Origin: Warburgia ugandensis
Lineage: Eukaryota > Streptophyta > Magnoliopsida > Canellales > Canellaceae
Direction: 5' to 3'
NCBI GenBank assembly: GCA_035236585.1
Contig: CP141132.1
Location: 81,954,880 to 82,018,879 of the forward strand
DNA length: 64,000 bases
The notes below the pieces were generated by a model. The model worked only from the letters and a program-made list of their open reading frames with translations. It searched no databases and was not told the origin of the DNA. The position numbers and the translations under genes are program-made. Shown here one piece after another: positions 4,234 through 60,082 of this stretch. How positions within the stretch are numbered: position 1 is the stretch's first letter; each line of letters begins with the position of its first letter.

Positions 4234-4482
4234 TGTTAGATATTTAAACTATCGTTGGCTCACTTCCTATTAGTTTAAGCTTTTAGTTGAATGATAATCC
4301 AATAAGGTATCAAAGGTGCATTGGCCAAAGGGTCATGAATTCAAATATTGAGATCTCCCATTTATCAAACCCATGTGCAAGAGCAAAAATGACCTTTTAC
4401 GTGAGCATGTGTGTGTTAGAGATATAATTATTATTTGGCCACTTCATTTATTAGCTTAAGCTCTGATACCATGCTAGTTTGT
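4234..4482 (+). mobile_element. TRIM-like miniature LTR element (fossil)
   Basis: Two short terminal direct repeats, about 4234-4308 and 4414-4482, both begin TGTTAGA and share a 'cacttc...ttagcttaagct' core. The first is followed by GGTATCAAAGG, which resembles the Met-tRNA primer-binding site TGGTATCAGAGC of plant LTR elements. The interior is about 105 bp and non-coding. This matches terminal-repeat retrotransposons in miniature. Related minus-strand copies lie at about 23985-24200, 25110-25275, 25480-25557 and 60368-60605. Old and diverged. Confidence 0.55.
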
Positions 4483-9170: not shown

Positions 9171-9417
9171 TGTTGACATATTGGGTTAATAGTTAAGTAA
9201 ATATTCTTGGAATTCTTTTATACTTTTAGAGATAATATAGTTGTAAATTAGGTATAGACAATAGACAAATAGCTTGATTGTAGGGTCAATAGCTTAAATA
9301 TATGATCTGTACTATTAACCTATCACTCTATATACTCTATATATGTACCTGTACATATTCATTGAAGAACATAGAATAAAAATATTCTTCTCAATTATCT
9401 CCAAACTTTCAAACTTA
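9171..9417 (+). repeat. 5' LTR of the Copia fossil
   Basis: Begins TGTTGACATA and aligns throughout with 13372-13610, including the shared 'attcattgaagaacatagaa' stretch. It is followed by the primer-binding-site-like sequence. Confidence 0.88.
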
Positions 9418-9868
9418 GTATCATGCGCAAGTCAGATCCGAAGCTTCTGGGACCAAGTCTGTTCCCACTATTATTCAATTCGAAGGCTGATCATTCAATT
9501 CAGGGACTGGACTCAATGAGACAAATTATAATATATGGTCTCACATCATGGAAATGCATAATGCTGAGAAGGAGAAACTCATTTATTCATGGTAATTCAC
9601 ATCCACCTACCGAAAAGGATGATGAATATAAAAAAGTGGTATGCAGATAATCGAAAAGTCAAGAGATGACTATAGATGTCTATGTCCCTGTAAATTATGG
9701 AGTGATACATTCCCCTACCCACCGCTTGAAATATTTGGAAAGCTCTTTCTAAAGCTTTTTATGATGGAGCAGATAAATTACAAGTTTTTGCCTTGAATAA
9801 GAGGGCTCTCTCCCAAACATTCTACTAATTCTCCACAATACACAAAAAGTGTTCTACCTTTCTATTTG

Positions 9869-9959
9869 GTTGGACCTTGTTCCATCTTGCTAGTTTTGAG
9901 GAAACTGCTTCAATCAAAACTGGTCTCCTCAAAACCAGCAAGATCGAACAAGGTCCAAC
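9869..9959. repeat. 34-bp inverted repeat inside the Copia gag region
   Basis: Arm 9869-9902 and arm 9926-9959 are reverse complements with two mismatches, separated by a 23-bp spacer. The duplication looks like a local inversion-duplication inside the fossil element and would form a strong hairpin. Confidence 0.9.
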
Positions 9960-12900
9960 TATTCTAAGATAGCTAATGGTGCTGACAAATCTACCTACAA
10001 ATGTATTCAATGCAATCAAACTGGTCATACCTAAAGTCGCTGCTTTGAACTCATGAGGTATCTAGAATAGTGAGATCATAGCCATGACTCACAAAAGAGG
10101 AATTCCAAGAAGACCTCCACTACTGGGGTTGTGGAAACAAAGACAGAGGATGATATTGTTGAAAAAATATTTGTAATGATAGCTACTTCTGGTAATAGTG
10201 GTAAGGTTTTAAATATGTCTACTTTTGTTTCTAATAGTGCATGGATAATTTATTCTGGTGCTATGAATCATATGATATTTGATTCTCGACAGGTCTTACC
10301 CCTTAAACCACCCTCACAAAAATTTGTTTCCACTGTCAATGGTACCTCGATCCCTGTTGTTGGAAAAGGATCCTTGTCCCTCATTGATACTTGTTTTAGT
10401 TATACCATCTTTGGATTATAATCTTTTATTGGTTTCTCAAATCACCACTGCTTTATTTTGTGTTGTAACTTTTTGGCTCGAATTTTGCGTGTTTAAGGAC
10501 ATTCAAATGAGGTAAACGATTTGTTGTGGTGTTAGGCGAGGGAAATTGTATTACTTGGACTTAGTGTCAAAGAGTTCGGATAAGTTGCGTCAAGCATTGA
10601 CGATAAATAATTCTGAGGAAGAAAAGAAGCAATCTGACATTTGGTTATGGCAATGACATCTAAGGAGTGCTTCCTTTGTTCACCTTAAAAAAATATTTTC
10701 TAGTTTATTTGCAAAATTTGATATTTCTAGTTTCAGGTGTGATGTTTGTGAATTCGCAAAGAGCCATCATGCATCATTTCCATTAATTTTAAATAAAAAC
10801 CCAGTTCATTTTATGGTTATACAATTTGATGTTTGGGGTCCATCCAAAGTCACTACCTTGGGTGGATCACATTGGTTTGTTACCACAAGTTTAGGTCCTT
10901 TGTAGTGACAATGGAGGTGAATATTTGAGCTTTGACTTTCAATAGTATCTAGAAACACATAACACTATTCATCAAACTACTTGTTCTAATATGCCCTAGT
11001 AGAATGGAATGGCCAAGCACAAAAATTGTCATGTTTGTGCTTTGTTGATCGAAGCCTAAAGTCATTATCCTATTGAGGAGAAGCAATTACTTTTGCAACC
11101 TATTTGATCAACCGAGTACCCTCTAGCACTATTGATTTTTGTTCACCATTTTCTGGCTCTCTCTAAAGTGGTTGTTGCCCCACCCATCCCAAACTTACCT
11201 ATTCATGTCTTTAGTTGTATACCATTTGTACACCTCCATAAGCATCAGTACAACAAGTTGACTACTCGAGCATTACGATGTATCTTTCTAGGGTATTTTA
11301 CATATCAAAAAGGGGCATTGATGCTATCATCCTCTAACTCAATGAATGTTTGTTACATTGGATGTAGTTTTTCATGAAGATTCAATGTATTTTTCCTTTG
11401 AGCTTGAACTTCAGGGGGAGTACCATGAGGAAGTTTTGACTCTAGACTATGTTGTTCGCATATCTAAAGAAAGGAAACTCCCTGAAGAAGGGAAACTCTT
11501 TGAACCCTATAACTAGGATGTAGGCGAATTGGATTTGAGTGGTATAACTTTGGAGCATAATGGTGATGAACTCCTAAAAATTGAAGTTTTGTCAAAATCC
11601 CTCGCGCCATAGGCAACTGATAGACCAAAACAATCACTTGCTGATATTACACCAAACTAATTTCTTGTTGACGATGTTATTAGTGTATGAACCATCTATG
11701 AAACAGCTACCATCACGTCATACCAGAGGTATTTCTAAACCCGCATATGAACCTGAACTTTCTAGTAAAATTAAATATTGTACGAGTCATTATGTGTCTA
11801 GCCACCATCTGTTAAAATTAAATCAATTATCTATTGCATCTAGTCCTAACATTGAGCAAGAAGTCTTAGCTAACCCAAGGTCGAAAGCAGCTATGAGTGA
11901 GTGAAGAGATGAAATCCTTGCAAAAAAATAAAACTTGGGAACTTGTTAACTGTTCTACAAGAAAGAAATCGGTTGGTTTTCGATGGGTTTATACTATGAA
12001 GTACAAAGTAGATGGTACAATTGAATGCTTTAAAGCGAGACTGGTGGCAAAAGGGTACACTTAGACCTATGGGATCAATTATACTAAGACATTTGTACTT
12101 GTAGCTAAAATCAATATTGTTCAAGTCTTGTTGTCTCTAGCAGCAAACTTAGATGGGTCATTACAATAGTTTGACATGAAGAGTGCCTTTCTACATGGTG
12201 AGTTGTCTGAAGAAGTCTACATGGTCTCCTACCAGGATGCACGAAACTAGAAATACATAATTAGAAGGTGTGCAGATTAAAGATATTGATGTATGGGTTA
12301 AATTAATCTTCGAGAGTATGGTTCGAAAGGATCACAAAGTCTGTGAGAGCCTTTGGCTATCGTCAGAGCAATGCAGGCCATACTTTATTCTTAAAGAAAC
12401 AACATGATAAGATCACTGCACTTAATGTATATGTGGATGACATGGTGGTTACATGAAATGATCTTGAAGAAAGAGAAGCTCTACAAAGTTACTTGTCTAA
12501 AGAATTCAAAATAAAAGACATTGATTCCTTGAAATTCTTCCTTGGGATTGAAGTGTCTCAATCTAATAAAGGAATTTTTTTGTCTACAAAAAAGTGTTCC
12601 TTAGATTTGTTACAGGAAACTAGTACGTCAACATGTCAAACAACTAATACACTAGTTGAAGAACGATTAAATTATATATTGAGTCTTATCAGGTACCAGT
12701 TGATAAAGGAAGATATCAAAGACTCGCAGGAAAATTGATCTACTTAACACACACAAGACCGGACCTCACCTACGCATTGAGTATTGTTAGCCAGTTTATG
12801 CATAATCTTGGCGAGCAACATATGAACACAGTTATGAGCATTTTGAGGTATTTGAAGTCTACTCCTAGAAATTTTTTTTATAGATTATCAAAGCTTGGAT

Positions 12901-13371
12901 GCATATATTGATGCTGACTAGGTTGGAGCATAGATGACAGGTGATCTACTTCATGTTATTTCACCTGTGTAGATGGTGATTTCGTTACATGGAGAAGCTA
13001 AAATGAGAATATTGTTGCATGTTCAAGTGCAAAGGCTGAATTTAGAGGTATGACATTTAGAGTATGTGAAACTTTATGGCTAAGACTTCTCTTAAGGAAT
13101 TTGGGCTATCCACCTGGGCAACCAATTCAATAATAAGGTAGCATGTGATAGTGCTCATAATCCAGTTCAACATGATTGTACAAAGCATGTGGAGGTATAC
13201 AGATTCTTCATTAAGGAAAACTTGGATGAGAAAATTGTGAAGTTGTCTAAGATTTGATCAAAGGATCTATTGGTCAATATCCTCACCAAAGCGGTTTCAA
13301 GTAGAGTGTTCTCAAAGTTTTTGGATAAGTAGGGCATGTGTTATATCTATGCACCAACTTGAGATGGAGTG

Positions 13372-13610
13372 TTGAGATATTGAGTTGATAGTCAATGATT
13401 CTTGTAAATATCCTTCGGATTCTATCATATTTTTAGAGATAATATAGCTGTAAATTAGGTATGGACAGTAGACATGTAGCTTGATTGTTGGGTCAATAGC
13501 TTAAATATATAATATATACTATTAACCCATCACTCTATATATGTATTTGTATAGATTCATTGAAGAACATAGAATAAAAATATCCTTCTCAATTATCTTC
13601 AAACTTAACA
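13372..13610 (+). repeat. 3' LTR of the Copia fossil
   Basis: Begins TGTTGAGATA and ends TTAACA, an inverted terminal match. Its partner is the 5' LTR at 9171-9417. Confidence 0.88.
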
Positions 13611-15430: not shown

Positions 15431-15488
15431 TATATGACTAATCTCAATCACAATTAGAGCTACCACCATTACTAACCAGCTTCTTTTC

Positions 15489-17807
15489 ATGGACTATTTG
15501 AGAGAAGTTGAAGGCAAACGAGCTCATGATCCCTTCCGCGAACGGCTAGCAAAGATGATTCGATGTGTAAGGGTCCCCGGTCCGGTGATAGTCGGAGCAG
15601 GTCCTTCCGGCCTAGCTGTAGCTGCCTGTCTCAAGGAGAGGGGTGTACCAAGTATGATCATAGAGAGGTCTAACTGCATAGCTTCTCTGTGGCAGCTCAA
15701 GACTTATGATCGACTACGCCTTCATCTTCCTAAGCAGTTCTGTGAGTTACCACTCATGCCTTTCCCGGAAGGTTTTCCTGTGTATCCTACTAAACAGCAA
15801 TTTGTAGGCTATTTGGAAGATTATGCGAAGAAGTTTGATTTAAAGCCAACATTCAATGAGTCCGTAGAAAGTGCTGAATTTGATCGAACTCTCGGGTTTT
15901 GGAGGGTAAAAACCATTGGATTGAAGAAGGAAGAGACAGAGTATGTTTGTAGTTGGTTAGTGGTGGCAACTGGGGAGAATGCAGAGGCTTTTGTGCCGCA
16001 AATTGATGGTTTGGGTGATTTTGTTGGGCCTGTTGTTCATACAAGCTTGTATAAGAGTGGAGATGCTTTTCATGGAAAGAAGGTTTTAGTGGTTGGGTGC
16101 GGGAATTCAGGGATGGAAGTGTGTTTGGATCTCTGCAACTACAATGCTTGTCCATCAATTGTAGTTAGAGATACGGTAAATTTACTCCCTATCTTTCTAT
16201 GGTTATATGATTTCTTTCACAAAATCTGACGCATATATGAACCACTCCATGTAGATTAAGCAATCTCTGAACGACTCCATGTTGATTAAGCAATCTCTCT
16301 CATTCATTTTGAAGTCTAAAAGGGACCTTATTTAGAAAACATAGCAGGTTGTTAATCTCTCTCTCTCTCTCTAAGATAATATGCATTTTCATAAACTATG
16401 ATAAATATGTGAATAAACCCAGATAAATTATTTACTCTCTCTAATTTTTCCTCGAATATCAAGAAGACCCACTAAGGATTTTCAAATTTAGAGTAGGAAA
16501 GATGTGAAAGAAAAAAAGGAACAGTAAGATTATCAAACTCTCTTTCGTTCTAAGTGTCTTGGGTTATTCACTCATGCTCAAAGTTTCCTGTGTTAGGAAG
16601 ACTCAGTAAGATTTTTCACTCTAGAGTAGAAAGATGTAGAAGGAAACAAGAGGAAAAGGAACAGTAAGATTGTCAACCTCTCTCTCTCTCTCATCTATCT
16701 TTTTCGGTTTCGTGGTAGTTTTCAATGTTTCTTAAACTGGTTTTGCCTTTGACTTAGACAGGTTTAGTTCATATATTTCTATACTTCTTTTTCGTCGCCT
16801 TCCAGTGCTGTTCCGCAGTTTTTAGCTACAAGAAGCTTGTTTTTGCACAGTAGCTGCCTTTTTCATTCCTCTTTGTTTCACTTTCTTGGGATTCGTCGGC
16901 ACGCGAGTCTTCTATATACCGTTTCTTTCCTCAACCTTCTTTTAAATAAAGTAGTGTCCATATTAACGCATTTTAACATGTATACTTATTACACAAACTA
17001 ACTCCATCATATGTTTTTTTGCCCTGTTAGGTGCACGTTCTGCCGAGGGAAATGCTTGGGAGGTCTACTTTCGGCCTTTCCATGTGGTTGCTAAAGTGGT
17101 TCCCTGTCCACTTGGTGGATCGCTTGTTACTACTCATTTCATGGTTAATGCTAGGTGATACGGCTCAATTAGGGCTTGACCGGCCTCAAGTTGGGCCTCT
17201 CGAACTTAAGAACATCACCGGCAAGACCCCTGTCTTGGACGTTGGTACTCTTGCCAAGATCCGGGCTGGAGAAATCAAGGTTTGAAAAAATGACATTAAA
17301 GAAGCACAAAATTAAAGTGTACATACAAGTGTGTGTAATGGGTCTAACAAAGATGGTTTGTTTCATAACTAAACAGGTTTGCCCTGCGATTAAGAGACTA
17401 GTTGAGCATGGAGCGGAGTTCGTAAATGGAAGAGTAGAAGACTTTGACGCTGTGATTCTTGCAACTGGTTATAGAAGCAATGTACCCTCTTGGTTAAAGG
17501 TAATTCGTCTGCTACTCTTGAAATTGCTAATTGTACTTGGAGGTGAATTTCATGTTTAATGATGAGATTTACCCTTTGCTATGATGTTTAGGAGAGAGAG
17601 TTCTTCTCAGCGAAAGATGGCTTACCAAGGAGACCTTTTCCTAATGGGTGGAAAGGGGAAGGTGGTCTATATGCTGTAGGATTCACAAAGCGGGGCCTAC
17701 TAGGGGCATCGATGGACGCTAGAAGGATCGCACAAGACATCGGTGTTGGAAAGCCGAGGCCAAACAATGCATGGCCTTCTCTCGCCCGCCTACTTCATCA
17801 TGACTGA
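15489..17807 (+). CDS. YUC: YUCCA-type flavin-containing monooxygenase (auxin biosynthesis), 4 exons
   Basis: Exons 15489-16175, 17031-17279, 17377-17499 and 17592-17807 are all bounded by GT-AG and together encode 424 residues, the usual family length. YUCCA enzymes convert indole-3-pyruvate to indole-3-acetic acid using FAD, NADPH and oxygen. Visible motifs: FAD-binding GAGPSG (36-41), the FMO signature F-x-G-x3-H-x3-Y (178-188) followed by KSG, NADPH-binding GCGNSG (203-208) and ATGY (341-344). The N-terminus 'EGKRAHD' and overall text resemble the YUC2/YUC6 branch as I recall it; subgroup assignment is tentative. The first ATG after the CT-rich leader is used and no upstream in-frame coding is seen. 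Introns fall at family-typical places. No break was found, so the gene appears intact. Probably cytosolic or ER-associated. Confidence 0.95.
16239..16298. repeat. Two 30-bp tandem repeats in YUCCA intron 1
   Basis: Units 16239-16268 and 16269-16298 differ at two positions. Both contain 'actccatgt.gattaagcaa'. Confidence 0.93.
16461..16691. repeat. Imperfect direct repeat in YUCCA intron 1
   Basis: About 16461-16545 and 16597-16691 share 'aagac.ca.taag', 'agagtag.aaagatgt' and 'aaaggaacagtaagatt', each copy running into a CT-rich stretch. The spacing is about 135 bp. A duplicated intronic segment; no function visible. Confidence 0.8.
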
Positions 17808-33977: not shown

Positions 33978-36900
33978 GGTTCAAGCCAAGTCTTGACCTA
34001 ATTGAAACCCAAACCAAACACAAGTTGAGGCTTGAGACTTTTATAAACATCATTAATGAGTTTCTACCACATTTCATTGGTGAAAAAACAATATAGCAGT
34101 TATAAAGCCTTAAAGGAGACTCGGTCTCCACACTATTTATCATAATACATCATTAACACTTGCTTGCTAACTAGGAGTTCAAGTGAGTCTCATACATGCC
34201 CTATTAAAATAAAACATATAGGATGCATAAGGCTAATTGTCAAAAAATAAGATCTAACTCATACTCGGCATTAGTACATATATACAATACAAAATTTTAC
34301 ATCTTCAATTAGGCTTTCCTCATTTCATTCAACAACTTTCCTCTTCTCAGCTTGACTGGTACCTACAAAATAATAAGGTGAGCTGTGAAGCCCAATAAGA
34401 AAAAAGAACTAAACCCATACATATCCTATTATTCTTGTTGAGCTACGCTCAAAAGCACATTCAACCCCAACCATAGAGCATTCATTTCCATTTTAACTTA
34501 TCATCTACAAAGTAGCTAGCATGAATTATCAAGTAAGACATATGGGTATTAGCACAGAATTGCAGTTTATTCCAAATTCAGATATGATGCAATGGCCATA
34601 ACATGCAAACAAGCACATCCAATAGCAATTCCCTATTCATGTTCAACCATAGGACATTCTCTTCTGTTTCAATAGATGAGTAACTAAGTTATGAACTTAA
34701 TTCTAAATTTAAAATGCAAACAATAAGCAGAACTTTCAACAAAGCTGCATACTCATTTAATGGTTTCCTCAACAGTATTAAACAGGCATGACATTACCAC
34801 CATGATCCAGTAGTCATCTCCCTCAAGGTTTCCCATCTTGGGCAGCCCACTATGAGTATCATAAACAAGGCAGCCAAATCCTCAGGGTTTACCATCTTGA
34901 GCGTCACCAAAGTTAAGTTTCCCCAGGATTTACCATCTTAGGCGACTCCACCTTAGTCAAAATCAACCAGGCAGCCCTTTCCCTTAGGGTTTACCATCTT
35001 GGGTAACTCAAATCTGCCAACTCATCCCTCACGGTTTCCTATATTGGACAGCTCAATCGTGATTCCAAAAGACCAGGTAGCCCTTTACCTCAAGGTTTAC
35101 CATCTTGGGGGGCTCAATGCCTGACAGCTCATCCCTCAGGGTTTACCATCTTGGGCGGCTCCACCATGATTCCAAAGAACCAGGCGACCCTTTCCCTCAA
35201 GGTTTACCATCTTGAGAGGCTCAATAATCGACAGTCTGTTCCTCAGTGTTTACCATCTTGGGTGGCTTCACCTTAGTTGCAATCAACTAGGTAGCCATTT
35301 TCCTCAGGGTTTACCATTTTGGAAGGTGTCATCATAGCTTACCAAGCAACCCTCAGTGCTTACTATCTTGGGTTTGACCATTGCATAACAGTTTGCATCA
35401 TCATAGTAGTTAAGCATAGTAAATTAGACTATTACATGACAATTTCAATAAGTAATTACAATTCCTATCATCCATTCAACTAAGGTGATAAGATATTCAT
35501 TCTACACATTTATAATGTTAATTTCAATGAAACAGATCAACAAGAATTTAAGGAATAGAAGGTTTAGGATCCTTACCTGCTCTCAAGGTACAACTCAAAA
35601 TTCAACTACCAATGTCGTTCACACTGCGCTCAAACCTCTACAACGAATACAAGTTCTAAGTAAATTTTAGAATTCCATGCAATTTTCTATAATCACTTCT
35701 AGCTCTTTATTCACAATGTTCTTGATCTAACCTCATATATCTAGATCAAGGATTTGTACACCAATTGGTCGCTATTTAATTAGATCAGAACCATTGGTCT
35801 TACTTCGCTGGTCTACATTGAGCGTGTACCTCTAGAAGTTTCAATTACCAATATTTTAGGAAAGTTATTTCCATAATTCCATGCTTTTAACTATAATTCA
35901 TGGTCTGATCTCCTTTCCTGGCCTTCGATCTTTGTTAATCGAGTATTGGACGGTCAAATAAGATCTCCCATCAATTTGTCCATAATTTGTTAGCCATTTT
36001 TGTGATAATTCATGACTAATGGGTAATTGGAGTTATATTTTACCTAGATCTACCTTCTGATCATATTTTTAACGGTCGAATGCTAAGATCTCAACTTTTT
36101 CCTACGCACTTACAAGTTTTCGATCACAATTTCATGGACCAATCGATTCCTGATCGACGATCCATCTTCACGGATGAAGAGATCATGTGTGATTTGTCCA
36201 CATCTGAAAATTTTTCATTTTGCATATTTTTTAGGGGTTGCTGGAAAATGTCGCTATCGCCGGAGAAGGTTACCAGATTCTGGTCGTCGCTAGCGACATA
36301 GGCAACCTTGTTTTTGAGCAATTTTTCACGGGGATATTCAAAATTTGTTGAAATTTTGTTTTCTAGTGTTTTTCCCTTTCGATTTCTACTAAAACTATCT
36401 TCTTCTTCTTTTTGCTGAATTTTTCAGTAGTTTTTTAACTTACCCTAGTTGCTGTTTTTTGCAAATTGTGATGCCGATTCTTGATGGATCTTCATGAAAC
36501 CAAAGGGGTTTCACTCAGAAACACCTAATTAACAATATGAACTGTTTGGATTTTCGATCCAATATTGTTCCTCTCACTGTATTCCTTGAATCCAACGAGT
36601 TTCTTACCGTCCTAGTTCGTTGGAAAAACAGGTATATGCATGGAAGAGAAACTGAGAAATGAAGAGGGAAAGGAAAAGGGAGAGTTGGAGGCTTACCTAG
36701 GTCGAGCTTGCAGCTAGTGCAACTCGAAGATGGTAATTTGCCTCACTTCTTGTCGCCAATGAAGCTTGGGTTGGTTGTATCTTGCCGGAGAGAATGGAGG
36801 TAGAGAAAACAAGGGATAGGGAGAGGTGTAAGGGTGAGGAACCTTAAGCAAGGGTTCATGCATGGATCGGCAGGGCATGATCATCCGATCCAAGTGAAAC

Positions 36901-40428: not shown

Positions 40429-41396
40429 CTAGAAACCTTCACCCAGGAAGGAGAATGGAAACTGCGGCCTCTTCTTCTCCTCCCCTCCCCACTCTGGGAA
40501 GAAGACGAGTTCATCGAGAGGAAGTGTATTTCCAACACTTGGTGTAGTCTCCTCAGTTTGAGGAACACCCAGTGACAAATCACCACTACTGCTGGAAGTG
40601 CTACCGCCACACACTAAGTTGGTGCCAAATGCTTCCTCAAGTAATCCATTGTTCAACCTCATATCTGCTTGTGGAACAACCATAACCACATCTTTCTCAT
40701 CTCGGCCGCCGATCGCAGCGCCTTCGGACGATATCATCAATCGTCTCTTCTTCTCAGCCAGTCGTTTTGGTGCCTCCTTTTCTTGCTTCAATCGGGACAG
40801 AAGATCTGGGTCTTCCACTACTTTTACTAAGAAAGCCATCACCTGCTGAGGCCTTTTTTCGGTCGCTTGTAGCCGTCGATTTATGCCTTCCACTTCTTCT
40901 TCTAGTGCCCTTTGTTCTTGCTTCAATCGGGCTAATTCGGCTAATATTGACCTTTGGATTTTGTCATCGTCTTTCTGCTTCGGAAGGATTGACGACGTAG
41001 AATGACAATGGAGGTTCTTCCGACGGACGATGTTCTTCAGGAGACTCTTCTGCCCGCGGAGGAACCATTCGTTGGCGAATTCCCAACGGTCAGGATCGAC
41101 TTTTCGAAATCCCTGGAGGAGTATAAATCAAAGATGAATTGAATATTTTCCTTTTTTTGGACTGGAATTTGAAGAAATATATATATACTTACGTAGGTGT
41201 TGAGTTGACGAACGAAGCTGGGGAAATTGTTGTGCTTGAAGTATGTAGGAAGGAGTTTCTGAGCGAAATCCAGTGGATCGAAGACGATGAAGCTGTTGTT
41301 GGCTGGACCCCATGAGATGATAGAGTCTGTGGAGGGATCATTCACCATCTGATATGTTTTGAACACAAATGGAGCGACCAGATTGATGGGCTCCAT
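40429..41396 (-). CDS. HSFC1: Class C heat shock transcription factor, 2 exons
   Basis: Exon 1 is 41193-41396 and exon 2 is 40429-41112, with an 80-bp GT-AG intron at the phase-0 site within the DNA-binding domain that plant Hsfs conserve ('RQLNTY' / 'GFRKVDP'). The product has 295 residues. DNA-binding domain about 7-101 ('[14 protein letters not shown]', '[14 protein letters not shown]', '[14 protein letters not shown]'); coiled-coil oligomerisation HR-A/B region about 117-178; basic nuclear-localisation-like [10 protein letters not shown] at 184-193. The DNA-binding domain text and the absence of an acidic-aromatic AHA activator motif point to class C, whose members are not classical activators and often act in heat, cold or osmotic responses (family knowledge). 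The symbol is by class; orthology is not tested. No break seen. Confidence 0.93.
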
Positions 41397-41638
41397 CCCA
41401 TGAACTCTCTCTCTCTAAAGTGAAAAACCAGTCGGAAATTTTCACAATTTCTCTTGCGAGCAAGAAGAGCAAAAGCCGAAGAGGATTCCACAAATTCCAC
41501 CTAAGAATTGATGGAAGGGGTCCAAACATCAATCTACTGCCATGTTGTATTTTTGTGTTGACAGGAGACAACGGCAAAGACAAAGGCCCAAAGAAGGAAA
41601 GAAAAAGGTCTTTAGCTTCTCTCTCTTGATGCTTCTGG

Positions 41639-45731: not shown

Positions 45732-46069
45732 TGTTGGGATGGGCCCACATAAGGCCCACGCCCATGTGATATGGTAGCCAACATCTAGAAGATAGGCACC
45801 ACACCGACTTAAGAAGTTCAACAATGACGACCGATGGTGTCATAAAAGATGTAGTTTTGATGATCTTATACTTGTAACTCCTATAAATAGGAGATATAGA
45901 TCTAAGAGAGATAAGAGAGTTATAGAGATTATAATCTGACCAGAATAGTGTTCTCTTGTGGATATAGGCCGTTTGGCCGAATTACATAAAATTGTCTCTC
46001 TTGTGTGATGTGGTGTGTTCTCTCCTAAATCATAGATCCTAGATACCAGATCGTGGTGGATCTGGCACA
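45732..46069 (+). repeat. 5' LTR of the nested Copia fossil
   Basis: Starts TGTTGGGATGG and ends GGCACA. Matches 55704-56062, including 'ctcctataaataggagatat' (a palindromic TATA-box region, about 45879-45898). Confidence 0.92.
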
Positions 46070-47690
46070 TCGAAACTAGTATTAGAGCAAAAGGTACTAC
46101 AATACCCATCATCATCAAGCTTTCCAACTGATATTAAGCTCAACAAGATATCTAGGACATGTCGAACTTCCTTGAGAACACTATTGATGTTGCTGGTTTT
46201 TCAGAGTTGTGGCACAAGCGGCTCAATCACATGAGTGAGAAATGACTAAGTTGTCTAGTCAAGAAGATTTGCTTTCAGGGCTCAAAGCTGCAAAGTTGAG
46301 CAACTGTGCTTATTGTCTTGCCGGGAAGCAACAACGAGCTTCTTCAAAAGCCATCCTTCTTCCAAGAAGCCAGGTGTTCTTGAATTGGTACATTCAAATG
46401 TGTGCAGTCGTACAAAGGTACGAACGCTTGGTGCTGCAATATATTTTGTCACCTTTATTGATGATTATTCCATAAAACTTTGGGTCTATGTTTTGAAACC
46501 TAAGGATTAGGTGCTTGACAAGTTCAAAGAATTTCAAGCTTTTGTTGAGCATCAAATAGGGAAAAAGCTGAAATGTATTTGCACAGACAACGATGGTGAG
46601 TACTGTGGACCATTTGATACTTATTGTAAGCAGCATGGGAGTAGACATCAAAGGACTCATCCAAATACTCCTCAGCTAAATGGTTTAGCAAACAAGATGA
46701 ACAGGATATTGATGGAGAGGGTTAGATGCTTGCCTTGAATGTAGATGTTTCTGACAAGCTATGGTATGAAAAAGATATCTCTTATGATCACTAGCGAGTG
46801 TTTTGGTGCAAGGCTTTTGTACATACATCCAAAGATGAGAGGTCCAAACTAAACATCAAGACCAAATAATATATTTTCATCGGCTACTGGCTAGATGAGT
46901 TTGGCTACAGGCTATATGATCATATTACAAAGAAGCTGGTTAGAAGCCGTGACGTGGTCTTTGTGGAAGACAAAACCATTGAATACATTGATAAAGCCAA
47001 AGGATCAGAAACTCGAAGTTCTGATACTCTAATTGATTTAAATCCAGTTCCAATTTCACATACGCTAGGTGTAGACGTGACGACGCGGGTTTTCAAAACA
47101 ATTTTTTGTGTTTATTTTCAAAAGGTGGCCACTCTAAATTTTTAAAATTCAAAATAGTGGTCTAGTTACTAGTATCCACATATCACATCCATCTGCTCCT
47201 ATCTGTCTCTGAGATATTGTAAACATTTAAACATTTACAATATCTCAGCAAGCTATGCTTAGTAGGGGATTTAAGAGACATATTAACTTTAAATTAAATT
47301 AAACATATATAATTCCATAATCATCAGACAAATCAACATCATAAAATTTCTTATTGCATGAATTAATCCCAACATCATAAATCACAATTTATAAGATAAG
47401 CATATCAGGCATATTCTCATGTTAAAATCTCTATAACATGTTTCTCACAGAAATTTATATATATATATCTACATACTACCCCAACTGCAGATTAATAGAA
47501 TCTATCAAAATGTGAGTACCATATATCATAATATCAAAACCCAGACATTTACAAGGTTAATATCCATACCGCTTTACCATCAGGGGTTCATAACAATCCA
47601 TCCTCTACTCGAATACATATCTAGTATTTACTAGTATCATAATATTATAATCTTTTGCTAGTAAGTAGTACACACAAATAATATACCACT

Positions 47691-47976
47691 TCCACTAGCC
47701 CGTTAGTCCACAGGCCTGCCTCAGGGAGCGTCCTCCACTAGCCCGTCAGCCTCTCAGACCCACCTCAGGGAAACGTCCTAATATCTATATATATCTCACT
47801 TCCACTAGTCCATCAGTCTGTAGGCCCGCCTCATGGAGCATCTCTCCACTAGCCTGTCAGCCTCATCAAATCCGCCTTAGGGAAGTGCCTCCACTAGCCC
47901 GTCAGCCAATAGGCCCACCTCAAGGAGGCATTTCCACTAGCTCGTCAGCCCGTAGACCCACCTCAAGGAGATATTC

Positions 47977-48028
<52 letters not shown>

Positions 48029-48312
48029 GGCTATATATGCCTATATATACATATCTCACTTCCTTTAGCCTGTCAATCTGTCGGCCCACCTCAGGGAGCA
48101 TCTCTCCATTAACCTGTCAGCCTCATCAAACCCGCCTCAGCAAAGTGCCTCCACTAGCCTGTCAATCCATAGGCCCGCCTCAAGGAGCATCCTCTATTAG
48201 CCTGTCAGCCTCATCAGACCCGCCTCAGGGAGGTCTCTCCACTAGCCCGTCAATCCCTCAGGCCTGCCTCAGGGAGCGTACTTCACTAGCCCGTTAGCCC
48301 GTAGACCCGCCT
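47691..48312 (+). repeat. 44-bp minisatellite, about 12 copies
   Basis: Monomer pattern 'tccactagcccgtcagcc' ... 'cccgcctcagggagc', 43-46 bp long. Two longer units carry the insert 'tatatat..atatctcact', the second together with (AAT)n. Lies inside LTR-like insertion no. 1. Confidence 0.92.
47977..48028. repeat. (AAT)n microsatellite
   Basis: About 52 bp of perfect AAT repeats embedded in the 44-bp minisatellite. Confidence 0.95.
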
Positions 48313-51300
48313 CAGGTAGATATTAATACCAACAACAATCATATCATAATATATAATGTGTTCATATACATATTTATATGTATGTACCATATGTACATCT
48401 ACAATCCATGGCCATAATCCACCACCTCTCTTTAAGAGGAATAATATATCAAGGATAATATTTAATCCTTTTTAAATTTTCCATAATAGTCACATAAGAT
48501 ACAAGGAATTACATACAATTTCAAATGCATCTAATTATAATTATTCAAGACATATTTCATATGAAATCTCAAAACAATGCCTCATATTTAAGCACTTTAA
48601 ATCACTATTTCAAAGTAATTCCATGGTTCGAATAGATTAAATTATCAATTCCATAATAAGGAATACCATCATGTATCAAATATTGATCTTAATATGTAAA
48701 CAAGTACGTACTCTTAAAATTCCACCTACCTCTTATGAAGCGTTCTTCAATTCCACTTGCTTTAATCACCCTCTTTTCCACGATCGACCACGTGCTTTAA
48801 TATTATTCAGGTACTTCAATTGAGTTAGAATACATACAATTGCTACAGCAACTAAAAGAACATAGATGTTTTAAGTTAAGCAACTTGCCTTATCTCTTCT
48901 ATTTTAAGCCTTATTGCAATACCATTGGCTTTTATGCTAACAATCGTTAGTGAACCCATCAAAGAACTAATGTCCAAGTAAACTAATATGTGTCTAACCA
49001 TAACAAAGTTCGAAGTGCAGACCCATTGCCAAGACCATTGACAATGAAACTACTGCATAAAACATAATTTCAGGTAGAGTGGTCAGAGTCCAAGTTAATT
49101 TCTTCTTCTAATTTCAGATTTTATACATACAATTCTGGATACTGGAATTTCATGGAACTAGAGAATTTCAAATTTTACACCTACAATTCTGGGGATTACA
49201 ATTCTAAGGAACTCGTGAATTCCAACTTTTACACATACAGTTCTCGGGACTGGAATTCTGTTGAACTCGCAAATTCCAATCATCTTCTCCCTTACCCACT
49301 CGGCCAAAACCCTAGACCTAGATGCATATACACAAATTGAGATCAAAATGAAGATGAGTTTTTGGGAATGGTGGAGATTGGAGGAAGGGTTTGCCTAAGG
49401 GATGCACGCCAATGGGGGGAGAAACGATCTGGGCACCGGTGATTTCGCAGCGGCAAAACCAAAGAGGGGTTTCTGGTCGTGCCAGGGTTGATGGAGATGG
49501 TGTTTACCCCAAGGAAGGTCATTGTGCCCGATGAGAGAAACGAGTCATCGATGCCAGAAAGAGGGTAGCTTGCTGGAGACAACAAAAAACCCCGAGAAGA
49601 GTTTCCATTAGGTAAACTGCAAATGGGGTATTTCACCAGAGCCAAAGGAGAAGGATCCGTCAGTGCCGAAAAAAAATAGGATCTGCCCAGGAAGAGTGTG
49701 CGCACCAGTGAATAGGGCTGGGATGACAGAGGTTTTGGGGTCCAGCCCGCCGGCCACCCTTAGCCTAGTTGAGTCTAATTGATCGAAGGAGTGGTTGATT
49801 AGGAGCTGCGTGGGATTTTTCCTATGCAGTTCAAAATTCAATTTTTTTCTTTTAAATACTTTAAATATTTTCTTAAAAGCAAATTCATAATGATTTTAGC
49901 TTTAATCATTGTTGGTCTTCACACTCAATTACCATTGACTAGATTTTATCTTTTTGGGCTCATATTCAGGTGCAATTACTAATTTGCACGTATTTAATTT
50001 AGTTAAAATATAAAAATTGAGAAAAATACAAAATTTTCATCCAATCTCATATTTTAACAAACTTAATGTCATTGAATTCCTATCGACACGTACAATCCAA
50101 ATTTTATAGTTTCAAGTCCAAATTCCAAGTTCCAAAGGAGTCACCTTTATCGAATTCAATTTTTACACGAAATTCAATTTCTAATTTTATTTCCATTAAA
50201 AATGAAATATCATCTATAGTAAATGGCTCAAAATTTAGGGTTGTTACAGTAGATGGCGCCAATGACCATGGTGGTGCGCCAACTGATGTTTAAGATGATC
50301 AGGCCAAGGGTGAGCATGAAGCTACTGAAAACACGGATGTTTCATCAAAGGCTGATGATGTTCAACAGGAGGTTCCTACTGAGGAGCTAGTAGTTTCATT
50401 GAGACAGAGTTTGAGAGATTGTCAACCCTTCACTTGGTATTCACCAGATGAGTAGTGCTCCTCACTGACAGAAGAAAGCCTAAGAACTACACAGAGGTAG
50501 TTGAGAGTGAAGAGAATGCGAAGTAGATTGCAGCTATGAGGGATAAGATGAAATCCTTACAGGACAACCACACATTTGAGCTGGTAAGATTGCCTAAGGG
50601 CAAACAAGCCTTGAAAAATTGGTGGATTTACAGGGTGAAGTATGAGGGTGACACTTCACGACCACAATACAAACCTAAACTTGTGGTGAAAGGCTTTGGT
50701 CAAAGAAAAGGTGTTGATTTCGAGGAGATATTTTCTCATGTGGTCAAAATATCTTCAATCTGAGTTGTATTGGGTTTGGCCGCAAACCTTGATATGGAGG
50801 TTGAGCAGATGGATGCGAAGATAGCATTCCTCCATGATGACTTCGAGGATGAGATATATATGGACGCAGCTCTTCAAGGAACAGTCAATTAAAGAAGGAG
50901 CTGAACAAAGTCTTTACTATGAAAGACTTAGGACCTACTAGACATATTCTCGGGATTTCTATCATTCGTGATAAGAGGAATAAATAGTTATAGCTGTCTC
51001 AGGAGAAGTACATAGAAAAGGTACATCAATGATTTCACATGGATAAAGCTAAAGCGGTTAGTACACCTTTTGCTACTTACTTTAAGTTTAGTAAGAATCA
51101 AGTTCTCATGAGTAATGCTGAGAAGGAATACGTGCAAGATGTTCCTTATGCTTTAGCTATTAGCAATCTTATGTATGTCATGGTATGCACCAAACTAGAT
51201 ATTGCATATGTAGTTGGTACAGTAAGCCGTTTTACATCAAATCTAGGAAAAGAGAGATTCAAATATGTGATGCTCTCTAGATGGTCAAGGAGAGAGGCGT

Positions 51301-51529
51301 GATTTACTGGTTGAAGATGGACATCATTGGAGAAACAAACGACATAGTCATGATCTCCAGCAAGGAGAGAACGCTACATCCACTTGCACATACACAAATT
51401 TGTCAACAGAAGGAGAAAACTCCTATTGTTGCAATGCATGCGATGGAGAGTGTGAAAAAAATGGTGAAGGAGAAGAGAAAGTGGACTGTCTATGAAAAAA
51501 TAGCTAAAAGAAGCATTATTAAGTCGATG

Positions 51530-51880
51530 CTATAGTACTATAATAGTACTGATATAGTGATCGTTACAGTATAGATACAGTGTTGTAACAGTATATTATA
51601 GGAACTGTAATGATGTTAGCTACAGTTACCTCATGATGATGCTGGCTATAGTATTGCTATAGGACCAAAATGTTGGTGCTACAGAAGACTGAGTTGTAAC
51701 AGTGTGAGTTACAACAGTACGCAAGTTACCACATTTTGAGTTGAAACAGTATGAGTTGCAATAGTGGCAAAGTTGCAGCAGTATGTGTTGCAACAGTGGA
51801 CAAGTTACAATAGTAGACGAGTTGCAACATTGGACAAGTTGCAACAGTGAACAGGTTGCAATATTAGCAATAAAGATGCA
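51530..51880 (+). repeat. Degenerate short-period repeat in the Copia 3' region
   Basis: Recurring 'gttgcaacagt' and 'gttacaacagt' words at irregular 15-20 bp spacing, strongest at 51686-51870; 51530-51680 has related 'tagtact' and 'acagtat' words. Slippage-type expansion of a short word. Confidence 0.75.
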
Positions 51881-51937
51881 CCCCAAGAAATTAATAATGA
51901 TACCCCTGTTCAGAAAAACTGAAAATGGTGAGTTGAC

Positions 51938-52163
51938 GCGGTGAAAAGTGTAATTCCGAGTGGACTATCTTGGTGATAGCTGGTGAGTGATTTGGTAACA
52001 GTTAGGAGTTAACTTGGTGAACAAGTGCAAAAAGTGGACACAATGACTACTACAAGTAGGCTAACTCGAGAACAGCAATTGGACTACTTGGTGAACAATG
52101 ATAGGATGGCTCAGTGAATAGTGATGATATGACTCGGTGAAAAGTGTAATTCCGAGTGGACTC
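51938..52163 (+). repeat. Direct repeat around 'gtaattccgagtggact'
   Basis: The 26-bp block 'gtgaaaagtg' plus 'taattccgagtggact' occurs identically at about 51942-51967 and 52138-52163. Related 'actcggtgaa' and 'acttggtgaac' words lie between. Confidence 0.85.
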
Positions 52164-52192
52164 GATGCATAGACCTTTTAACCAGTGGATGT

Positions 52193-55100
52193 GTGACGAT
52201 CCGGTTTTTCACATGCATTTTTAAATGCAATAACTAATTCCTAGAGCGGGATCGATCCCTATTTGAAAACACTTTTAGAAAAACAATGTAATGCAGCAGA
52301 AAAATCTTTTGTTTTAAATTCATTTTTGAAAACCCCGAGTGTCATTTGCCTTCAAGATGAATAAGGAAATTTTGGAAATAAAGAAAAATCGTAAATGTCT
52401 TCCCAGGTCTATCCAGTCACAATGCATAGTCCAACTATATTAACTACAGATACATGTCCAAAGGTTGAATTATATACTTACATTTATACGTGTCTTCTCC
52501 TCATTTACTTGATCGTAGCACTGACATTTTCTTATGCTTCTTCTAATTCTTTTGGAGTTAATCTGTAAAAATAATATATTTGGGTGAGTAGTTCTCATAC
52601 CCAATAGGTGATATGATACTACTATTTTAAAACTGGGTAGGCAACATGCACAATTCAAAGAGCTTTTTCATGTAAAACATCAGTGATTCCATCTTGTGCA
52701 AACATGCATATTTATGCATAAACATAAGCTCATTGATGCAATTTTAATCATAGAATCCTTTACCAAAATTTAGTATTCAACGATATAGACATGACTAACA
52801 TCATAAAGTAAAAATTAATAGTATCCATGTAAGAATTAATAGTATCCATGTAAGAAGATCTCAGCAACACATCAAACCAACGAGTAAAATATAATAATCA
52901 TGAAACTTTTAAAATAGTCATCATTCAAGCAGATGCTGGCATTACTACAAGTATCATGCACATGGTCTTTTAGTTTTGTTCCCACTGCAGGCTGCCTCAT
53001 TTGGCGATTTGCCCACTTAGAACTCAAGCTGATGGGTCAATAACCATATCAAACCGACTGGTCACGAGTACTTGTTTAAGACCATCTCAATACTATATGC
53101 ATATTAATACAACCGAAATCATAGGGCCAACTATGCTCACGACTAGAACACCTCTGAATCGTGTGTTTCCGGTATCTAGAGACCTGTCCACCATAGCCTC
53201 CACGACAACTATGGATATGTCCCCGAAAGAGTGCCATAACACCTCCCGTGGTTGTCCCTATTTACCACAGCAGTTAGGGAAGGGACAATGCCGTTTTTGG
53301 CAGCGATACCATCCACCCCTTGTGGTAGTAGAAGTCGGGAGGCCAACCCCATACATAACAACCTCTTAGCATAATGCCCACTAAGCTCAATAGCCCAAAG
53401 AGCATATATAGATAAATCCAAATCTCAATCATCGAAATCATGCAATTTATGCATTTATTTTCAACCATGCAAGCAGTGCATAAAATCAATTCATGCTACT
53501 ATCGCAGTCAAAGCTATAAAACATGAAGACAATTCTGCATATTCGTATCAGAACAGCATATCTCAAAAGCATGCTAAAAATGGCAATAAAGGCAAGTCAG
53601 AGTTTAAGATGCATTTCATACTTGTATAATAACAGCTTGTCTCAAAACACATACTAAATACGGCAATAGAAGCAGGTAAATCATTTAGAATTTGGGATGC
53701 ATTTGAAAACTGAGTAGTATTAGACTACCTACCTCGATGTTCTTTGAATTGCATCCTTTATTACGCGACCCTGAGTTACCTTTGTGAAATCCTGAATATC
53801 AATTAATAACAAGGATTCAAGTATTATTTTCCAACCCTTATGGATCATTACTTAGACAGCTAGATCTACTTTTTAGAATCTATAGGTCCTTACTTAGCGC
53901 ACTTTCAGGCTAGATCTCACGTATAGATCTAATGTTTAATGGTTAGATCTTTTATTCAAGGGCTGATATATGTACTTTGGGGTTAATCCTAAGCTATTAA
54001 CCTCCTAACATCTTTAATGGATCAATTCATGAGATCTGATCCTAAATTTTATAGTCTCATTAGGTCCGCGTCGTCATTATGAACGCAATGGTTCTTTCGT
54101 ATTGTCAATCAGACTTATATAGATTTTTTAATTGCGTTTTTAATGTTGCGCATCAACGAACAAACCAGAATTGTCTGCGTAGGGCCCAGGCGTCACGGTT
54201 CCCATGATGCGTGCGCATCCCGATCGAACTAAGACCACGTTAGCACAGTGCGCAAGCCCGAGCGGCATGCCAGGGCACGCATCCTGAACAGTTTCACGCG
54301 GATGCGTCTCTAGCACTTACGCGGCACTTCTCAACTCCCAGGGCACTTGTGCGTCTCGGTCGAACCTGGGACCGTGCCTGCACGGTCGCACGCCCGAAGC
54401 CCGTCCCAAGGACCCTGTCCCAAGCACGCGTTACGCGCAACATCCCTAGGACGCTTCTAGTTCGAGGGTTCTAAAACAAACCCTCTTCCGGTGATTGCTA
54501 GCTAGAACCCACCAGATATGGCATGGATCTGGGTCGGAAAAGAGGGGAAAAACCAAGGGGAGAGAGAGAGAAGAGAAAAGAGGGAAGACGAGGAGGGTAC
54601 CTGGGTGTGGAAGAGGTGGGGATTTCCACATTTTCTCTAGGTTGCCCAAGCCCTATACGCTGGAAAACACGTTAAGGAAAAACCACCCAGTTTTCCTTTG
54701 AAACCAGAGGAAAAATGGGGGGAAAAGGAGAGAGAAGAATGGCCGGCCCAAAGGAAGGACCTGGGCTAGTGCTGGAAATCACAGAGGAGGGGTTTTTCGA
54801 TAATAATAATAAATAAATAAAGAAACTTGTCGGAACCCTAGGTTGTAGCAGCCGGAGAAGATGGGGAAAAGAGGTGATCGGATGAAGAGGGAGAAGGGCT
54901 TTTTAAAGCCCGTGAAGGCGGTGCTGCCCAATGGCGGTGCCGCCATTTCTTCCGGTGACACCTTGCAAAGGCAGTGCTGGAAGTCAGTGAGAGTTATGGG
55001 ACAACCAGGGGCGTCGTTATCAAAATGACCCCCTGCGTTTTCAAGCCTTTTTCTTTTACAGTCAAATTACAGATATGCCCTCCATCTTTCAACACTTATA

Positions 55101-55346
55101 ACTTCTTCATACAAACTCCGTTTCTAGTGTTCTTTGAGGCATTGGATTCCATTTCGAGTGTAGAATCTAATGATACTAATTTTTCTCACAAATTCCTTAG
55201 TTTTATATTTTAATTAAAATAAAATATCCAGCCACCTATTAAGGTGATTTAAGCATATTTAATTCTCAAAATAAACAAACCAAACATCATGATTGATCAT
55301 GGTTGTAAAAGTGATATAATAAGATTGAAAATTTTGAGTCAGTACA
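52193..55346 (+). mobile_element. Solo long LTR-like insertion no. 2 (probably Gypsy-type fossil)
   Basis: 3154 bp between perfect GGATG duplications (52188-52192 and 55347-55351). Starts TGTGACGATCCGG and ends GAGTCAGTACA. No gag-pol motifs. Distinct in sequence from insertion no. 1 but of nearly the same length. It shares block order with the LTR-like region at about 34-37 kb. A GC-rich domain at about 54150-54460 is rich in CG dinucleotides, unlike its surroundings. Confidence 0.75.
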
Positions 55347-55703
55347 GGATGTGACCACTTCGAGTGATATTTATAAGTAGCTAACGAGGACAGGTGTAGG
55401 GAACTGACAGGCTTCTAGGTGGCAGGTTTCTAGGCAGACAAGCTTCTAGATGCTTATAATACACTCAATGATTGATTAGCACTTAGACTCGATAGAGAGT
55501 ATTAAGTAGGGGGAGCAGCAACCCTATCAAGGAAAAGTCGCAGATACATAGAAACGGTTGATGGAGCCCTGGAAAGCGCAAACAACTATTGGAGAGTGAG
55601 CTAGACTGAAGCTATGTATAAAAATAAATAAATAAGTGAGGGAGCTAAACATTGTAGCAATGTCTTTTAGTGCATTCTCCTCCCATGGGCATAGAGGGGA
55701 GAT

Positions 55704-56062
55704 TGTTGGGATGGACCCACATAAGGTTCATGCCCATGTGAGATAGTAGCCAACATCTAGAAGGTCAACACCACACTGACTTGAGAAGTTCAAAAATGAC
55801 AGCCGATGGTGCCCTTAAAGATTACTGTAACAGCCATCGGTTTTGACAATCTTACACCTGTAACTCCTATAAATAGGAGATATAGATTTGATAGAGATGA
55901 GAGAGTTACAAATAGTGTAATCTGATCATAATAGTGCTTCCTCTCCCGTGGATGTAAGCCGTTTGGGCAAACCACGCAAAATTATCTCTCTTGTGTGATG
56001 TGGTGTGTTCTCTCCTAAATCATAGATCCTGGACATCAGATCATGGTGGATCTGGCACATCA
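55704..56062 (+). repeat. 3' LTR of the nested Copia fossil
   Basis: Starts TGTTGGGATGG and ends GGCACA. Partner of 45732-46069, with one extra stretch of about 20 bp. Confidence 0.92.
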
Positions 56063-58628: not shown

Positions 58629-60082
58629 ATGGATCATTATCTGCCTCCTTTCTCCCTTCTTCTTCTTGTGGTAAGCTTTATTCACTTCATTTATACAGCA
58701 AGTCAGCTTCTTTTAGCTAAGTCCTGTTAACTTCATGTTATAAACTTTGTGACGATTGATTATCTTCTTCGCAGCTTGCTGCCCTTGTAGCAGCCAGCCA
58801 TGGAGCTTCGCCTTCAGAAGAATATTGGCACCAGGTGCTGCCTAAAACTCCCATGCCAAGAGCCATCGCCGATTCCTTGCCCGTAGGTAATCATCGATCT
58901 TTGGCATCAGCACTAAAACTACATGTAGGGTCTGGATGGTTAAGCATGCAAATGGTTCATCTTGTTGGGCATATAGCTTAGAATCAATACTCCATGTAGA
59001 GTCAGTTTAAAAGAACTATGCATGGAATGTCATACTAATTGCGTGCTAATTGGCTTTTGTTATCTATCTTTGGCTTTGATGATTTGGTAGATGACAAGAT
59101 GGGAGGGGTCTCCGTGGATGTAGGGAGCGGTGGCGTTCACGTCGGCGTTGATGTCAGAAATGGTAGTCATAAAGCTGGAACCACAGTAGATGTAGGTAAC
59201 AGTGGCGTTCATGTACATGCTGGAGAGGGGCAGCCTAACAGTGGAACCACCATTGGTGTGGGACGTAAATATGCAAGAGAGAGGACTGGACGTAGAGCTA
59301 ATGGGGGCGGGCACGGGATCGCCGTAAACGCCGGTAGGCCTCAGAAAAAACCAGTTTCCGTCCGAGTGAACCCACAAAGAAACCAGTTTCGTTATAACTA
59401 TGCTGCATCTGAAGATCAGCTCCACGATGACCGGAAGGTTGCAATCTTTTTCCTTGAGAAGGACCTGCATTCCGGTGCCAAAATGAATCTACAGTTCACC
59501 AAGACTACACCTGGATCAACCTTCCTTCCGCGATCCGTCGCCGATAAAACACCACTCTCATCCAGCAAATTGCCCGATATCCTTAATCAACACTCGATCA
59601 AACCTGGATCACCGGAAGCCAAAACCATCAAGGATACACTCGACATTTGCACGACCCCAGCATCTAATGGCGAGAACAAGTACTGTGCCACTTCAATGGA
59701 ATCAATGGTCGATTTCACCACGTCAAAACTCGGATCTAATGTCCTGATCCTAACTACCGAAGTGCCCAGGGGAAGTCCCAGGCAAGAATACACCATTGGA
59801 TCAGGGTTGCAAAAAATGGCTAGTCCAAAATCAGTGGCATGCCACAGTGAATCCTATATGTACGCCGTCTACTACTGCCACGAGACGCCTGCAACTATCG
59901 CGTACGCAGTTCCACTGGTTGGGAAGGACGGGACCCATGTCAAGGCAGTGGCAGTTTGCCACAAGGACACTTCAGCATGGAACCCTAAGCACCTTGCATT
60001 CCAATTACTCAAGGTGAAGCCTGGGACTGTTCCTGTCTGCCATTTCCTTCCTCAAGATCACATGGTTTGGGTACAGAAGTAA
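58629..60082 (+). CDS. RD22: BURP-domain protein, RD22-like, 3 exons
   Basis: Exons 58629-58670, 58775-58886 and 59091-60082 are bounded by GT-AG and encode 381 residues. Signal peptide about 1-24 (hydrophobic 'LLLLVLAALVA'), then 'YWHQVLPKTPMPRAI', typical of the family. Gly/Val-rich repeats at 56-110 resemble the TXV repeats of the RD22 subgroup ('TTVDVGNSGVHVHAG', 'TTIGVGRK'). BURP domain about 170-381 with FFLEKDL, two cysteines (238 and 250) and the signature CH-X10-CH-X25-CH-X25-CH at 302, 314, 341 and 368. RD22-like proteins are secreted to the cell wall, and several are induced by drought, salt or abscisic acid (family knowledge). The first ATG after the TATA box is used; an in-frame ATG at 59039 lies in intron 2 and would lose the signal peptide. 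Intact. Confidence 0.95.

Follow-up and report, generated by a model that had tools for sequence, protein, structure and literature searches.

Within a 64-kb stretch of the Warburgia ugandensis genome (1.12 Gb, 14 contigs), located at 81954880-82018879 on contig C7 and hereafter called the window, a decayed Ty1/copia element spanning positions 45732-56062 preserves a layered record of retrotransposition. The Copia element came first and was, very probably, later entered by two long-LTR retrotransposons of sister families, each now represented by a solo LTR and whose source families appear LARD-like. A preliminary description of this DNA had proposed a three-element nest with readable boundaries, and both inserts, both pentameric duplications and the flanking Copia LTRs proved to be correctly placed (Table 1). 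The length of 3173 bp given for insert 1 was also correct, while insert 2 measures 3155 bp rather than 3154 bp.

Table 1. Features of the nested elements, in window coordinates
Feature	Position	Strand	Basis and remarks
Host 5' LTR	45732..46072	+	Ends at 46069 or 46072; starts TGTTGGGATGG; 81% BLAST identity to 55704-56061
Degenerate primer-binding-like site TAGTATTAGAGC	46077..46088	+	Two mismatches to TGGTATCAGAGC; position is its sole support
GAG-pre-integrase/integrase remnant	46156..47073	+	Pfam; frame broken by stops and frameshifts
Target-site duplication (TSD) GTAGA, left of insert 1	47071..47075		Empty sites in 18/19 relatives
Insert 1, solo LTR, 3173 bp	47076..50248	-	Paired LTRs on C2; ~240 bp absent near 47155
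TSD GTAGA, right of insert 1	50249..50253		Direct reading and empty sites
Reverse-transcriptase (RT) remnant with deletion	50527..50984	+	Pfam RVT_2, E 6e-14, first piece
Host 3' part	51250..52186	+	Mapping to relative L067
TSD GGATG, left of insert 2	52187..52191		Empty site in L074
Insert 2, solo LTR, 3155 bp	52192..55346	-	C7 pair; 8 solo relatives
TSD GGATG, right of insert 2	55347..55351		Direct reading and L074 empty site
Polypurine-rich tract (PPT) of host	55685..55703	+	Direct reading; equivalent place in relative L074
Host 3' LTR	55704..56062	+	Ends at 56059 or 56062; paired with the 5' LTR by alignment

The boundaries of both inserts were compared with other copies of the host element in the same genome. 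Nineteen such copies, identified through the host RT, were cut as loci after the best 40 of 713 first-look candidates had been scored; here, as for both inserts, the relatives sampled are best matches and not a random sample. When 206 bp of left flank and 252 bp of right flank of insert 1 were used as separate queries, the two flanks abutted and shared exactly 5 bases in 18 of the 19 relatives (10/10 on the plus strand and 8/9 on the minus strand). In the remaining relative, L044, the left flank is locally duplicated and the junction also reads GTAGA once. At the site of insert 2, reading about 2.4 kb further downstream from the matched RT block in 14 relatives reached the left flank in one (L067). 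In L074, the continuation of this locus, the flanks meet directly, overlapping by exactly 5 bases, and GGATG is present once. L061 gave two short matches, both limited to the distal end of the right flank, and the other 12 relatives gave no match to the site-2 flanks. Chance occurrence of the pentamers is excluded by these empty sites at both insertions, not by pentamer statistics. Both insertions and both duplications are therefore real, with one covering relative at site 2. Copia sequence adjoins each insert directly on both sides, without a primer-binding site (PBS), PPT or internal sequence next to it. No terminal direct repeat was found within the inserts, which rules out a smaller LTR element complete inside either of them.

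The orientation of insert 2 was established from its relatives. A search with its first 700 bases returned 5506 candidates, of which the best 40 were scored and 19 other copies were cut as loci. In four of the 19 (L014, L021, L024 and L026) a PBS in reverse complement, with 0 or 1 mismatch, lies directly outside the end reading TGTGA; the motif read outside the U5 end, GCTCTGATACCA, is presumably a match to tRNA-Met. Since the PBS adjoins the TGTGA end, the insert-2 LTR lies on the minus strand and TGTGACGA, previously taken as the start of both inserts, is its 3' (U5) end; PBS-like sites with two mismatches occupy the same place in diverged pairs of the insert-1 family. A complete pair was found on C7, whose LTRs (68646911-68649906 and 68653495-68656382) are 90.6% identical, with a Kimura two-parameter distance (K2P) of 0.10; it is bounded on either side by the TSD CCCAT, and inside it the PBS adjoins the U5 end and a purine-rich tract the U3 end. 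One copy without a PBS, L018, is the 3' LTR of a pair on C6, with the PPT-side motif adjoining it and extra sequence inside the LTR; the pair is incomplete, its partner L014 being matched over 643 bases only. Among the other 14 copies lacking a PBS, the far ends of eight were readable and look solo, and the PPT-side motif was seen in none of the 14 far ends. The six left out of the solo count comprise two without a match (L012 and L015) and four in which the match stops at base 231-246 of the 350-base query (L016, L022, L028 and L029). The eight readable copies are 2783 to 3187 bp long and carry a 5-bp duplication, identical at 5 of 5 positions in five of them and at 4 of 5, as read by eye, in three (L011, L019 and L020). 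Solo LTRs are thus common among the best-matching copies of insert 2.

Copies of insert 1 were sought with its first 1200 bases (best 40 of 2625 candidates) and its last 700 bases (best 40 of 1344). The insert begins CGTGACGA, its first base now being C. A close pair on C2 (54004696-54018646) is 87% identical to insert 1 at both U3 ends and flanked by TTGTA on both outer sides. Of two more diverged pairs, one on C1 carries both a PBS-like site with two mismatches and the PPT-side motif, and one on C8, read on the PBS side only, has a PBS-like site, again with two mismatches. No PBS was present outside the U5 end in any of the seven closest copies cut as loci. At position 80 of insert 1, all eight relatives examined (these seven and the C1 copy) contain 234-277 bp that the window copy lacks, and a copy on C13 is about 3.44 kb long by coordinates. 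The similarity in length between the inserts, initially considered unusual, was rejected as a signal; it is accidental, since insert 1 has been shortened and lengths vary within the insert-2 family. Inside insert 1, window positions 47681-48316 are occupied by degenerate tandem repeats (about 44/89 bp) that recur in its C1 and C8 relatives; a perfect (AAT)17 tract lies among them.

The two inserts had been described as unrelated, and their bodies indeed show no alignment beyond short, chance-level matches. Their ends tell otherwise. In register, the U5 ends are identical at 23 of 31 bases, a value reached by none of 200000 random pairs of 31-mers drawn from the same inserts, and at the U3 ends, for which no control was run, 14 of 20 bases match. 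Both inserts lie on the minus strand, and AAAGAATTTCGTC is found at the PPT side in copies of either family. The most fitting reading is that of sister families within a single lineage. As for the identity of this lineage, LTRs of Del elements range from 1143 to 4831 bp according to the part of PMC4029996 available to us, and the accessible portion of PMC6317226 assigns tRNA-Met PBSs to most chromoviruses and to Ty1/copia lineages with complete-tRNA primers, but not to non-chromoviruses. A Del/Tekay chromovirus (Ty3/gypsy) origin of the insert families is likely, given the tRNA-Met-type PBS together with the long LTRs, although neither feature is unique to this lineage. Unlike Del/Tekay elements, the insert-family copies read showed no coding region; the GGG of the type-A U5 end, as placed in PMC4029996, is one base off in the copies read here. 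A scan of viral contigs with the terminal 19-mer produced a single match, in a stretch of 60% G+C bearing no other convincing likeness to the inserts.

The host element is heavily eroded. In the pieces of its integrase region, Pfam reported gag_pre-integrs (E 4e-4) and rve_3 (E 0.02), both below the cut-off, and SH3_retrovirus at E 1.2e-9; a PDB search with one integrase piece gave no match. GAG-pre-integrase was the sole Pfam match in the first stop-free pieces after the 5' LTR, and neither gag nor protease was found by Pfam in the subset of stop-free pieces scanned. The domains follow in the order GAG-pre-integrase (below cut-off), SH3_retrovirus integrase and RVT_2, and because the integrase stands upstream of an RVT_2-type RT, the host is assigned to Ty1/copia. 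Between adjacent pieces of the RT the RVT_2 profile jumps from position 100 to 177, and relatives carry about 225 bp extra at this deletion. A further stretch of about 1.28 kb, which follows the RT in the closer relative L067, is absent from the host near 51254. The element resembles plant Ty1/copia elements in its integrase placed before RT, its short LTRs and its tRNA-Met-like PBS, and differs from them in lacking a recognisable gag, protease and parts of RT. Short GTTGCAACAGTG-like repeats are present in its 3' part, at window positions 51690-51861.

The host LTRs had been given lengths of 338 and 359 bp. Their positions hold, but these lengths mix two end points; under a single rule they are either 338 and 356 bp (ending CACA) or 341 and 359 bp (ending CACATC plus one base), and the latter yields a host TSD matching at 4 of 5 positions at best (TCACA/TCACC). 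The PBS-like and polypurine tracts of the earlier account both stand where expected, the latter directly before the start of the 3' LTR. The PBS-like site is distinguished by its position, as matches to the same motif with up to three mismatches number 51 in the window against 45 expected; the motif itself, TGGTATCAGAGC, is one that we take to be a primer-binding motif. The dating that had been suggested by aligning the two LTRs was carried out: over 45732-46071 and 55704-56062, 288 of 340 aligned sites are identical, with 41 transitions and 11 transversions, corresponding to a K2P of 0.177 +/- 0.026, or about 0.088 per lineage. With rates of 1.3e-8 and 7e-9 per site per year, which we assume here, the Copia element would be roughly 7 to 13 million years old. 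Gene conversion can distort LTR ages.

Other features were noted in the rest of the window. A second Copia-like element was recognised by eye at 9171-13606, with direct repeats (about 240 bp, 82.5% identical) that lie 4.2 kb apart and enclose pol-like stop-free pieces. An exact copy of the TGGTATCAGAGC motif, of which about 0.01 would be expected by arithmetic, occurs on the minus strand at 4460-4471, where no LTR was delimited. Host genes identified by Pfam, which are in keeping with a plant, include an FMO-like gene (15438-16226, plus strand; presumably YUCCA-like), an exon encoding a heat-shock-factor DNA-binding domain (41040-41414, minus strand) and a BURP-domain protein (59039-60079, plus strand). 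A tandem array of 3.8 copies of a 107-bp unit lies at 34920-35326. An Rfam search of the window returned no match and a tRNA scan found none.

To learn what the full elements contain is to ask what kind of element left the solo LTRs, and here the interiors of paired copies are informative. In the insert-1 family, the interiors on C1 and C8 are 79% identical over 3.9 kb, and the C2 interior, read over 1.5 kb, is 75-82% identical to the former and 71-81% to the latter. Interiors of the insert-2 family on C6, C7 and C1 (L030, L032 and L058) share blocks of 67-79% identity and one 75-bp block of 91%. In these six interiors, three per family, every stop-free stretch of 60 or more amino acids on either strand was scanned with Pfam, 42 in all. 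None carried a retrotransposon domain; three gave weak matches below the cut-off, two of them Atrophin-1/DUF3915 in a GA-repeat of L032 and one zf-Di19 in L058. The expectation that both inserts would occur elsewhere as paired LTRs around Gypsy coding elements was hence confirmed for the paired LTRs of both families and not, in the interiors read, for the coding part. A Gypsy-type RNase H piece was detected by Pfam at 358-777 on the minus strand of L059, at least 358 bp inside an element of the insert-2 family, and open pieces resembling pol or gag follow, by eye, up to 3300. It is on the opposite strand and L059 matches the L030 family interior only over its first 376 bp, so we take it to belong to a foreign element nested there; the region is probably another nest. 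The source families of both inserts look like LARDs, with which they share long LTRs (here about 3 kb), a PBS, a PPT-like tract and a non-coding interior common to copies; paired long LTRs with PBS and PPT, by which LARDs are recognised, are complete and bounded by a TSD on C7. LARDs such as Dasheng in rice, as treated in the part of PMC1940013 available to us, have an autonomous partner (RIRE2), a counterpart of which was not identified here.

Several other origins of the inserts were weighed. That they belong to another class of mobile element, non-coding but complete, that also makes 5-bp duplications would accord with the absence of recognised coding sequence, which was upheld in that the longest stop-free piece of each insert has no Pfam match above the cut-off. 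Yet the ends of the inserts coincide with the ends of paired LTRs on C7 and C2, with PBS and PPT-like tracts adjoining in the parts read, and terminal inverted repeats within the inserts do not extend past the first few bases. Other transposon classes are ruled out by the paired copies, and this origin is scarcely credible. Almost as hard to sustain is the idea that LTR-only molecules integrated directly, with no recombination between LTRs in place. The preponderance of solo forms, eight readable ones against four copies with a PBS among the 19 copies of insert 2, could be cited in its favor, but full pairs are known in both families and nothing here requires direct entry. Moreover, solo LTR formation by recombination is apparently favored by long LTRs, and numbers of solo LTRs seem to rise with LTR size, at least in the sections of PMC1940013 and PMC7251063 available to us.

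A more serious alternative concerns the nature of the source families rather than the nest itself. Both inserts could derive from ordinary coding Gypsy families, the non-coding interiors representing a non-autonomous part that shares their LTRs; with three interiors read per family, and with LARDs able to share LTRs with an autonomous partner (in the consulted part of PMC1940013), this is quite possible, if somewhat short of probable. Against it, every interior examined is non-coding, including one lying beside LTRs 87% identical to insert 1. A further proposal, that these are two abundant LARD-like sister lineages wholly dependent on the proteins of another element, with a non-coding interior of 3-4 kb that stays recognisable from chromosome to chromosome and whose RNA may function in packaging or regulation, is advanced tentatively, at a little less than even confidence.

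The favored history of the nest, with LARD-like sources reduced to solo LTRs, would then run as follows. A Ty1/copia element integrated and decayed. Two long-LTR retrotransposons of sister families, probably mobilized by proteins of a related chromovirus acting as a helper, later entered it in separate events and against its own orientation, insert 1 landing between the integrase and RT remnants and insert 2 in the 3' untranslated part, and each integration duplicated 5 bp of target. Recombination between LTRs, the standard route of interior removal, would subsequently have eliminated the interior and one LTR of each insert, leaving a solo LTR. That the Copia element preceded the inserts, as the preliminary description had it, follows from the nesting and the empty sites. 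In trees of the sampled relatives, terminal branches were 0.060 for insert 1 (12 sequences), 0.045 for insert 2 (20 sequences) and 0.074 for the host RT (20 sequences), the last being closer to the insert values than is the host LTR value of 0.088. Insert 1 probably preceded insert 2, a weak ordering that compares divergences from different sequences and from best-matching relatives. In one study (PMC7251063, in the part available), about one nested element in four seemed to be older than its host.

In single LTR, 5-bp duplication and absence of an internal part the inserts are the same as other plant solo LTRs and no different in kind; here two of them occur within one host element. The 3' untranslated part is the region most often hit in plant LTR retrotransposon nests, according to the portion of PMC6911290 available to us. 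The site of insert 2 agrees with this preference, whereas that of insert 1, in the gap between integrase and RT, is outside the preferred places listed in that portion. The nest exemplifies the ordinary layering of a plant genome, for which the proof is here unusually complete; it reveals no new kind of element and changes no concept. Its value is that three insertions and two removals are recorded in 10 kb, with inner boundaries open to verification at empty sites elsewhere in this genome, and that it points to LARD-like families as a source of 3-kb solo LTRs in Warburgia ugandensis.
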